From: Candidatus Tectimicrobiota bacterium
Lineage (GTDB): Bacteria > JACPUC01
Reading direction: 5' to 3'
DNA: 64,000 nucleotides
Assembly (NCBI GenBank): GCA_016192455.1
Contig: JACPUC010000025.1
Coordinates: forward strand, 1 to 64,000
Shown: piece after piece, positions 18,681 to 30,735 of the stretch
Layout: every line of letters starts with the position of its first letter
Numbering within the stretch: position 1 is the stretch's first letter
The notes under the pieces: model-generated
What the model was told of the DNA's origin: nothing
Databases searched by the model: none
Seen by the model: only the letters and a program-made list of their open reading frames with translations
Position numbers and translations under genes: made by a program

Positions 18681-20180
18681 TCAACCGAGGAGCGCCTGAA
18701 CGGAGCGGAGCGCGAGGTCGAGGTAACGGGAGGGGAAGAGGCCGAGATCGAGCGTGCCGAGCACGGCCAGGATGAGGGCGATGACGAGGCTGCCGCTGAA
18801 TGAGGCGCCCGCGGCTTCGGCCTGCATCTCCGCGGCGGGCTCGCGCATGTACATGATGACGATGACGCGGAGGTAGTAGAAGACCGCCACGACGCTGTTG
18901 AGTACGGCGATGATCGTCAACCAGACGAAGCCGGCGTTGAGGGCTGACTTGAAGACCACGAACTTGCCGACGAACCCCGCCGTGGGCGGAATCCCCGCCA
19001 GGGAGACCATGAAGAGCGCCATGACAAGGGCCAGCCAGGGCCTTCGATAGCCGAGACCGGCGTAATCGGCAAGCCCCACTTGGTCGCGGTCGCCGCGGCC
19101 CATCGCCACCACGACGGCAAAGGCTCCCAAATTGAAGAAGGTGTAGGCGAGGGTGTAGAAGAGCACACTCGACACCCCAAGCCGCTGCGCCCCGCCGACT
19201 CCCCCCGAGGCCACCAGCGCCACCAGCACGTAGCCGGCGTGGGCGATGCTCGAGTACGCCAGCATGCGCTTGATGTTCGCCTGCACGATGGCGAGGATGT
19301 TGCCGAGGGTCATGGTGAGGGCGGCGATGAGCCAGAAGGCCCCCCACCAGTCGGCATGCAGCCCCTCCAGCGCGAAGCTGAAGACGCGCACCAGCGCCGC
19401 AAAGCCGGCCGCTTTCGGGCCGGCGGAGAGGAAGGCGGTGATCGAGGTGGGCGCCCCCTCGTAGACGTCGGGGGTGTACATGTGGAACGGCACCGCCGTC
19501 ACCTTGAAGCCGAACCCGACGATAAGCAGCCCCATCCCCACGTAGAGCAGGGCTGAGACGTTCCCCGCTGGAGCGGCCTTGAGGAAGCCGCCCATCGCCT
19601 TGAGGTTCGTCGTCCCCGTTGCTCCATAGAGGAAGGAGATGCCGTAGAGCAGGAAGCCGGTGGCGAAGGCGCCGAGGAGGAAGTACTTCATCGCCGCTTC
19701 GTTCGAGCGCGCCTGCCCGCGCAGGAAGCCGGCGAGCACATAGAGATTGAGGGAGAGAATCTCGACGCCGAGGAAGATGGTCATGAGATCGCCGCCCGCG
19801 GCCATGAGCATCATCCCCAGGGTGGAGAAGAGAATGAGCCCGTAGTACTCACCGACGTTCATCGAGTGACGCGCTCCGTAGCTGATCGACATGAGGACGA
19901 CGAGCATCGAGCTGGCTAGGAAGACATAGTTGAAGAAGACGGCGACGGCGTCGATCGCCAGGAGGCCATGGAACGGCGCCGCCACGACACCGCTCAGGCG
20001 GGAGTTAGCGTAGAAGGTGAGGAGCAACCCGAGCAGCGACAGGTAGGCGAGGAAGCTGCGATCGCCCGAGGCGCGCCGCCGGCCGAACGTATCGGCAAGC
20101 AGCACCACGAGTCCCGTGATGACGAGGATGAGCATGGGCGCCAGCAGGCCGAGGTCATACTCTGGGAAACGGAGTTCCAT
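18681..20180 (-). CDS. nuoN: NADH-quinone oxidoreductase subunit N
   Basis: A 499-residue antiporter-like membrane subunit of respiratory complex I with about 14 hydrophobic helices. Recognisable stretches are MLMAAGGDLMTIFLGVEILSL (split over helices near residue 110-130), RSNEAAMKYFLLGAFATGF, FGFKVTAVPFHMYTPDVYEG and IVQANIKRMLAYSSIAHAGY, which hold the conserved Glu and Lys residues of the proton channel. It forms one of the three antiporter-like modules of the membrane arm. It is the last gene of the operon and starts three bases after nuoM ends. Length is as expected. Confidence 0.95.
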   Translation of the reverse strand: MELRFPEYDLGLLAPMLILVITGLVVLLADTFGRRRASGDRSFLAYLSLLGLLLTFYANSRLSGVVAAPFHGLLAIDAVAVFFNYVFLASSMLVVLMSISYGARHSMNVGEYYGLILFSTLGMMLMAAGGDLMTIFLGVEILSLNLYVLAGFLRGQARSNEAAMKYFLLGAFATGFLLYGISFLYGATGTTNLKAMGGFLKAAPAGNVSALLYVGMGLLIVGFGFKVTAVPFHMYTPDVYEGAPTSITAFLSAGPKAAGFAALVRVFSFALEGLHADWWGAFWLIAALTMTLGNILAIVQANIKRMLAYSSIAHAGYVLVALVASGGVGGAQRLGVSSVLFYTLAYTFFNLGAFAVVVAMGRGDRDQVGLADYAGLGYRRPWLALVMALFMVSLAGIPPTAGFVGKFVVFKSALNAGFVWLTIIAVLNSVVAVFYYLRVIVIMYMREPAAEMQAEAAGASFSGSLVIALILAVLGTLDLGLFPSRYLDLALRSVQALLG

Positions 20181-20183
20181 CGG

Positions 20184-21899
20184 CTAGCGCCTCCCTGCCG
20201 GCAGAGGCCCGGCGCCCGGCACATCGCGCCCCATTCGGCGCTCCATGGGCGGGGGCGCGGCTGAGGTCATGGCGGTGGAGCCTATCGCGGCAAGGTTCAT
20301 CTCCCAGGGCCGTTCGGACGGCGGCGGTTCCCCGGCCTCCCCCAGCACTCTTGCCGCCCATGCTGCGTCGGCGCCCGTTGCCGGAGCGACGGACGTCCGG
20401 GGCGCGGCGCCTTGAACGGCCTGCTGGTACCCGGCGACCAGCCGTCGCACCGAGGCGTCCGTCGGCCTCAGGAAGGTGGCGGGGTAGACGCCGATCCAGA
20501 CGACGAGCACGACGATCGGCGTGAGAATGCCGATCTCCCGCAGGTTCAAGTCGCGCAGGCCGCGGTTCGCGTCGTTGGTGATCGTCCCGAAGATAACGCG
20601 CTGAAACATCCAGAGCATGTAGACCGCGCCGAGGATGACGCCGATAGTGGCGAGGACGGCGTAGAGCCGGTTCGCCTGGAACGCCCCCACCAGGATGAGG
20701 AACTCGCCCACGAAGCCGTTCAGGCCGGGCAGGCCGATCGAGGAGAGCATGATGACGAGGAAGAAGGCCGCGAAGATGGGCACCTGTTTCCAGAGGCCGC
20801 CGAAGTCGCTGATCAGGCGCGTATGGCGGCGCTCGTAGATCATGCCGACGATGAGGAACAGGGCGCCGGTGCTCAAGCCGTGGTTCACCATCTGCAGGAG
20901 CGAACCCTGCACCCCCTGCATGTTGAAGGCGAACATGCCGAGCATGACGAAGCCGAGGTGGCTGACACTCGAATAGGCGACGAGCTTCTTCACGTCGCGC
21001 TGCACCATCGCCACCAGGGCGCCGTAAAGGATGCCGATGAGCGCCAGCACGGAGATGAGCGGCGCCATGGACTGCGCCGCCAGCGGGAAGAGGGGCACGC
21101 TGAAACGCAGGAACCCATACGTGCCCATCTTCAGGAGGATGGCGGCAAGGATGACGCTGCCCGCGGTCGGCGCCTCGACGTGCGCATCGGGCAGCCAAGT
21201 ATGGAACGGGAAAACGGGCACCTTGATGGCGAAGGCGAAGAAGAAGGCCAGGAAGAACCAGAATTGCAGGTTCGGAGTGAGTTGCAGGGAGAGGATATCG
21301 AGCAGGTCGAAGCTGTTCTTGCCGGCCAGGAAGTAGAGCCCGATGATGCCGACGAGCATGAGCACGCTGCCCGCCATCGTGAAGAGGAAGAACTTGATGG
21401 CGGCGTAGACGCGCCGCGGCCCGCCCCAGATGCCGATGAGGAGGTACATCGGGATGAGCATCAGCTCCCAGAAGACGTAGAAGAGGAACAGGTCGAGGGC
21501 GCAGAAGGCGCCCAGCATGCCGACCTCGAGGAGGAGCATGGCGATCATGTACTCTTTGACGCGCTTCGTGATGTCCGTCCACGACGCCAGCACCGCCAGC
21601 ACGGTCATGAAGGTTGTGAGGAGGACGAGCAGCAGGCTGATGCCGTCGATGCCGAGGTGGTAGGTGACGCCGAGCGACTCGATCCAGGGGCGCAGCTCCT
21701 CGAACTGGAAGTCGGCGCTGCCGGCGTCAAAGGCGGTCCACAAGCGCAGCGTGAGGAGGAAGTCGATGAGCGTGGTCAGCAGCGCCACGGCGCGAATCGC
21801 GCCTTTCTGGCGCTCGCCGTTCAAGAAGGCGAGGAGGAGGACTCCCAGCAGTGGCAGGAAGATGATGATGGTTAGGAGAGAGGAGCCGCTGTCGGTCAT
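20184..21899 (-). CDS. nuoM: NADH-quinone oxidoreductase subunit M
   Basis: A 571-residue antiporter-like proton-pumping subunit of complex I. Motifs include [37 protein letters not shown] with the family Glu, the helix with [19 protein letters not shown], and [19 protein letters not shown] with its conserved Lys. The C-terminal ~75 residues after the last helix are hydrophilic, rich in Ala, Pro and Arg, and longer than typical; they show no domain I recognise. It sits between nuoL and nuoN in the canonical order, with 95 bases separating it from nuoL. Confidence 0.94.
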
Positions 21900-30104: not shown

Positions 30105-30375
30105 GGGTCATCCAACTTGCTCTGAGGTGGGAATCAATGAGTGATCGTCGGGTGAACGAGGGGGTGAGCGCCGCTCCGCCCGCTCTCAGGCATCCAGCTT
30201 AGCGCCGCATCCCACGCGGATTGCTCGACTGTCTCGGCGGCCCTGGCCGGCGCTCGAGCCGCCGCTCCGGCCCCGTGCTGGCTACCGGCGTCCGGTGCGC
30301 CTCCGAGCCGGAAGCTGGCGTTCCGAGGTCTCGCAGAGGTTGCCACGCCCCCGACGGCCCCGTCTCTTGCCCCGG
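30105..30375. other. Gap at the expected position of nuoB
   Basis: 271 bases between nuoA and nuoC. nuoB needs about 480-550 bases with a CC motif and further cluster N2 ligands, and no frame here encodes them. The only open frame on the coding strand is Arg/Ala/Gly-rich and read through from nuoA out of frame. I see no other feature. Confidence 0.75.
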
Positions 30376-30735
30376 TTAATCCCACTCCAGCGCCCCCCGG
30401 CGCCACACGTAGACGTAGCCAAGGAGCAGGATCACCAGAAAGATGGCCATGGAAACGAAACCGAACAAGCCCAATTCCCGCAGCACGATCGCCCACGGGA
30501 AGAGCGGCACCGCTTCAATATCGAAGAGCACGAAGAGGACCGCAATGAGGTAGAAGCGGATGGAGAGGCGCAGGGTGCCGGAACCACGGGGAACCACGCC
30601 GCACTCGTAGGCCGCGAGCTTCTCGACGGATGGCTTGCGCGGCCCCATAAGGTGCGTGAGGACGAGCACGAGCAGCCCAAAGCCCGTGGCGAGGACGATG
30701 AGGATGAGGATCGGCACGAAGGTTTCTTCCATCAC
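30376..30735 (-). CDS. nuoA: NADH-quinone oxidoreductase subunit A
   Basis: A 119-residue membrane subunit with three helices. The conserved loop and second helix are visible as KLAAYECGVVP and RFYLIAVLFVLFDIEAVPLFPWA, with the functionally important Glu/Asp of FDIEAV. It is the first gene of the operon; a promoter-like sequence lies about 70 bases upstream. The start may be the second Met (30732). Confidence 0.95.
   Translation of the reverse strand: MMEETFVPILILIVLATGFGLLVLVLTHLMGPRKPSVEKLAAYECGVVPRGSGTLRLSIRFYLIAVLFVLFDIEAVPLFPWAIVLRELGLFGFVSMAIFLVILLLGYVYVWRRGALEWD

Follow-up and report, generated by a model that had tools for sequence, protein, structure and literature searches.

A complex I operon without nuoB, nuoD and nuoI and an intact nuoB-nuoD-nuoI cluster on another contig of a draft bacterial genome

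Results and discussion

An eleven-gene nuo operon with three spacers at the expected sites of nuoB, nuoD and nuoI

The window analysed here, a stretch of 64,000 nucleotides, corresponds to contig C28 of a 4.46-Mb draft genome (G000) that comprises 31 contigs and is 88% complete with 2.3% contamination. Between positions 18681 and 30735, its minus strand carries eleven intact genes for complex I subunits in the order nuoA-C-E-F-G-H-J-K-L-M-N, an order and an integrity that had been recognized from the sequence alone and that hold up on comparison with NCBIfam, in that each of the eleven products matches its own family. The operon opens with nuoA (30376-30735), which is recovered by the NuoA models with a best E-value of 1.5e-36, and continues with nuoC (29640-30104; TIGR01961, 146 bits against a cut-off of 122), nuoE (29046-29510; TIGR01958, 182 bits, cut-off 142) and nuoF (27635-28969; TIGR01959, 622 bits, cut-off 559), whose start we infer to be the ATG at 28969. 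The next gene, nuoG (26022-27599; TIGR01973, 507 bits, cut-off 470), codes for a short form of about 525 amino acids; its open reading frame as listed begins too early, at 27935, and the likely start lies at about 27599. The N7-type cysteine motif can be read in the NuoG translation, and the NADH module formed by NuoE, NuoF and NuoG is above the NCBIfam subfamily or equivalog cut-offs throughout. A similarly short NuoG is found in a second genome discussed below (G031) and in Opitutae, many relatives having a longer middle part. Downstream lie nuoH (25000-26025; NuoH models, best E-value 8e-125), which overlaps nuoG by 4 bp, nuoJ (24291-24854; NuoJ models, best E-value 1.4e-41), which is read from a GTG at 24854 with an alternative ATG at 24845, nuoK (23975-24286; NuoK models, best E-value 1.1e-37), nuoL (21995-23953; TIGR01974, 771 bits, cut-off 408), nuoM (20184-21899; TIGR01972, 660 bits, cut-off 264) and nuoN (18681-20180; TIGR01770, 442 bits, cut-off 333).

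Neither inside nor near this operon is there a nuoB, nuoD or nuoI gene, and the places at which they are expected are occupied by the three longest gaps within the operon: a spacer of 271 bp between nuoA and nuoC at the nuoB site (30105-30375), one of 129 bp between nuoC and nuoE at the nuoD site (29511-29639) and one of 145 bp between nuoH and nuoJ at the nuoI site (24855-24999), all on the minus strand. The sequence-only reading had noted the absence of the three genes from these intervals, which is borne out; its first two gap lengths, 271 and 129 bp, also stand, while the 154 bp that it gave for the third applies only if nuoJ begins at the ATG at 24845. The spacers are clean: a lax tblastn search of the three gaps for relics of nuoB, nuoD or nuoI yielded nothing clearly better than the reversed-sequence control, and a search of the gaps for repeats returned only two short and weak matches, both in the stretch of contig C27 that is described below. 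In 80 named genomes with a similar NuoD, nuoC precedes nuoD and nuoE or nuoH follows it at 74 places, and the order B-D-I occurs once (L024, Nitrospinota, as B-D-I-G). In view of these gene-order counts chance is not an issue for the genes missing from the window.

The missing genes are encoded elsewhere in the same genome

As the sequence-only reading had proposed, we searched the same genome with HMMs for the three subunits, and this recovered exactly two NuoB, two NuoD and two full-score NuoI proteins above the curated cut-offs. One copy of each is encoded in an intact nuoB-nuoD-nuoI trio on contig C23 (L014:7502-9857, minus strand), in which the stop of nuoB and the start of nuoD overlap by 4 bp; hence, among the options offered earlier for the three absences, a second locus is the right one. 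The remaining copies are distributed between a second operon on contig C27 (L015), which has the content A C D H I J K L M N and lacks B, E, F and G, and a lone nuoB at C23:206634 (L016). NuoC and NuoH are likewise present in two copies each, and the inventory closes exactly, with 11+3 genes for a 14-subunit complex and 10+1 genes for an 11-subunit-type complex. The trio and the window operon lie on different contigs of a draft, and their co-residence in one genome rests on binning and on composition: in G+C and 4-mers the stretches from C23 and C27 are close to the window (distances of 0.086-0.108), from which two other genomes lie at distances of 0.40-0.52.

The products of the trio retain the Fe-S ligands and the quinone-site residues of complex I. 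The four N2-ligand cysteines of NuoB align with those of the solved complex I chain 2fug_6, the two 4Fe-4S motifs of NuoI with the N6a and N6b ligand cysteines align with the solved chain 7ar7_I, and the quinone-site histidine and tyrosine of NuoD, in the motifs GPSHPGTHG and YTDRLDY, align with 2fug_4. The trio NuoD reaches 560 bits against the NuoD equivalog and can be aligned unbroken and over its full length with the NuoD of 14-subunit complexes; in the C27 NuoD the alignment is interrupted around residues 300-326, a break common to 11-subunit-type relatives. As the trio NuoD is thus of the 14-subunit type, the trio pairs with the window operon, which has NuoE, NuoF and NuoG. Taken together, all 14 core subunits are encoded, eleven in the window and NuoB, NuoD and NuoI on C23.

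Accordingly, we propose with high confidence that the window operon and the C23 nuoB-nuoD-nuoI cluster, contributing eleven and three genes respectively, encode a 14-subunit NADH:quinone oxidoreductase. The sequence-only reading rightly held that no working enzyme can come from the operon by itself; one is encoded, however, when the whole genome is considered. Judging from the gene content, two gene clusters most likely furnish the cell with a normal 14-subunit complex I. The C23 cluster would supply NuoB with cluster N2, NuoD with the quinone site and NuoI with clusters N6a and N6b, and these would be received by the operon-encoded NuoC, NuoH and NuoA. If the two clusters are expressed together and their products assemble, the electron path from NADH through NuoF, NuoE and NuoG, NuoI and NuoB to quinone would be closed.

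The C27 operon, which has its own nuoD and nuoI, would be completed by the lone nuoB on C23 to give a second complex of the 11-subunit type. Complex I enzymes of 11 subunits are known from Desulfitobacterium (PMC11238625), and the C27 operon resembles these in the lack of E, F and G and in its 11-subunit-type NuoD, in contrast to the window operon with its E, F and G; it differs from them in having its nuoB outside the operon, as a solitary gene on C23. Within the C27 operon a 482-bp gap (L015:9456-9937) separates nuoI from nuoJ.

Comparable splits in other genomes

Comparable divisions of the nuo genes are found in several other genomes, which are drafts too. In G031, which is unrelated to G000, the operon A-C-E-F-H-J, from which B, D and I are absent, is accompanied by a separate B-D-I-G cluster; the same genome has a second operon without B and I, together with an I-B pair on a further contig. 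A free-standing B-D-I-G cluster also occurs in a member of the Nitrospinota (G041, L024). Both differ from the G000 trio in that nuoG follows nuoI, and they represent a separate lineage. The nuoI and nuoB of the second complex of G031 (L189:12436-17902, contig C144) adjoin E-, F- and G-like genes, which possibly constitute a separate electron-input module.

In G153, C-E-F-H are found at one place and a fused NuoB-NuoD at another, the latter as a single 573-aa open reading frame that joins NuoB to NuoD without NuoC (L223:6505-8226, contig C33) and lies directly downstream of a gene for a NifU-like protein. Among its NCBIfam matches there is no model for a B/D fusion, the fusions represented in NCBIfam being B/C/D and C/D. 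Two congeneric genomes, G228 and G358, have both complex I operons without B and I and two separate B-I pairs per genome (L233, L234, L244 and L245), one of which (L234, in G228) adjoins an IscA-type Fe-S gene; unlike in G000, nuoD stays in the operon. G218 and G076 also have an operon without B and I. Finally, G032 has, besides an A-B-C-D-E-F operon that itself includes B, C and D, a free-standing B-D-I set, which may represent either an additional module or a contig binned in error. The set is located next to an acyl-CoA dehydrogenase gene (L144, contig C347). The free-standing sets of G031, G041, G032, G153, G228 and G358 are like that of G000 in that subunits carrying Fe-S clusters or the quinone site lie together outside the operon and NuoC stays behind.

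Origin of the layout and alternative explanations

In a tree of concatenated NuoB, NuoD and NuoI, the G000 trio groups with the free-standing clusters of G032 and G153, with Opitutae and with Ignavibacteria (100/98). The three free-standing clusters of G000, G032 and G153 as one clade, a group defined after viewing the tree, are not rejected (p 0.136). A single origin of the G000 trio and those of G031 and G041 is rejected (AU p 0.0001), and detachment of B-D-I most likely occurred at least twice. Resolution is weak in the trees of the operon subunits; the tree of NuoC, NuoF, NuoH and NuoL joins G000 to Ignavibacteria (SH-aLRT 95), and imposing the grouping of the trio on it is not rejected (AU p 0.19), such that the trio may share the history of the operon by common descent. 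We suggest that the layout probably goes back to a duplication of the operon with complementary losses, or else to the excision of three genes from a canonical operon. The three genes are not adjacent in the canonical operon, yet their relative order is kept in the trio, which duplication followed by complementary loss would explain; the order B-D-I-G in G031 does not fit this scenario simply.

An alternative history is that a trio gained by horizontal transfer took the place of the original nuoB, nuoD and nuoI and now completes the window complex; this is a variant of the two-cluster complex I with the same function. In its favour, the closest relatives of the trio NuoD and NuoI are the free-standing trio of G032 and Opitutae, whereas most of the operon subunits have their nearest relatives elsewhere; against it, the Ignavibacteria to which the operon tree joins G000 are also members of the trio clade, and the trio's grouping is compatible with the operon data by the above test. 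We regard acquisition by transfer as unlikely, albeit the strongest of the competing explanations.

Considerably less probable is an assignment of the trio to another enzyme, be it a group 4 membrane-bound [NiFe] hydrogenase or some further complex, with the window operon relying on the C27 complex for its Q-module. A second set of nuoD and nuoI does exist in the genome, and in G032 too a free-standing B-D-I coexists with an operon that itself includes B, C and D. On the other hand, neither of the [NiFe]-binding CxxC pairs of such hydrogenases is present in the trio NuoD, which also has the equivalog score and 14-subunit-type alignment given above, and the C27 operon has a D and an I to itself and is completed by the lone B.

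Decay of the operon toward a non-functional complex I, another of the earlier options, could be read from the loss of three core genes, but is unsupported and very improbable given relic-free gaps, eleven intact operon genes and intact B, D and I elsewhere with their ligands kept. An assembly fault, either a collapse that removed the three genes from the operon or a misassembly that moved them, had been considered as well and would be conceivable in a draft of 31 contigs, but we deem it just as improbable in view of three separate clean junctions, each at gene boundaries, the tidy cluster of intact B, D and I on another contig and the parallel arrangement in the independent genome G031.

Returning to the two-cluster complex I, we raise, tentatively and as the less likely reading, the idea that NuoB-NuoD-NuoI (or B-D, or B-I) is an evolutionary module that has detached from the operon several times independently, leaving NuoC behind. 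If so, the detached module might be separately regulated, matured together with Fe-S carriers or swapped between complexes, and the NuoB-NuoD fusion of G153 would be its extreme form.

Relation to known complex I loci

With respect to the canonical 14-subunit NDH-1 operon nuoA-N, the G000 system likewise encodes all 14 subunits and keeps the canonical relative order within each of its clusters, and differs in that a different contig carries B, D and I as a cluster of their own. Divided complex I loci have been described previously: Anaerosomatales strain Es71-Z0120 has one locus NuoACDHJKLM (PMC9686372), which likewise lacks B and I, the second nuo cluster of Chloroflexus has its nuoF far away (PMC3150298), and in Sulfurospirillum the genes ABCDEF and GHIJKLMN lie apart (PMC11238625). 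None of these is an A-C-E-F-G-H-J-K-L-M-N operon combined with a B-D-I trio. In the accessible parts of papers on Nitrospinota and Nitrospirales, second nuo sets are described, and not a B-D-I split (PMC10839748, PMC12342949). A full-text literature search, covering mainly open-access papers, found no use of the terms nuoBDI or NuoBD, and no description of the present split was found in the searchable literature. Dispersed nuo genes are thus already known, and what appears new here is the particular layout of an ordinary enzyme, an unusual layout that recurs in several lineages.

The apparent loss of core respiratory genes at this locus accordingly represents a change of gene layout, and scoring nuoB, nuoD and nuoI as absent would be an error in the metabolic annotation of uncultured bacteria. 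That B-D-I, B-D and B-I sets repeatedly occur away from the operon, with NuoC remaining in it, hints at which quinone-module subunits are able to move jointly, and the natural NuoB-NuoD fusion would offer a useful test object for the assembly of cluster N2 and the quinone site. Another kind of split is seen in G190, G323 and G045 (L191, L203, L158, L167, L205 and L206), in which A-E-H-J-K-L(-M-N) and B-C-D-F(-G) lie apart from each other.
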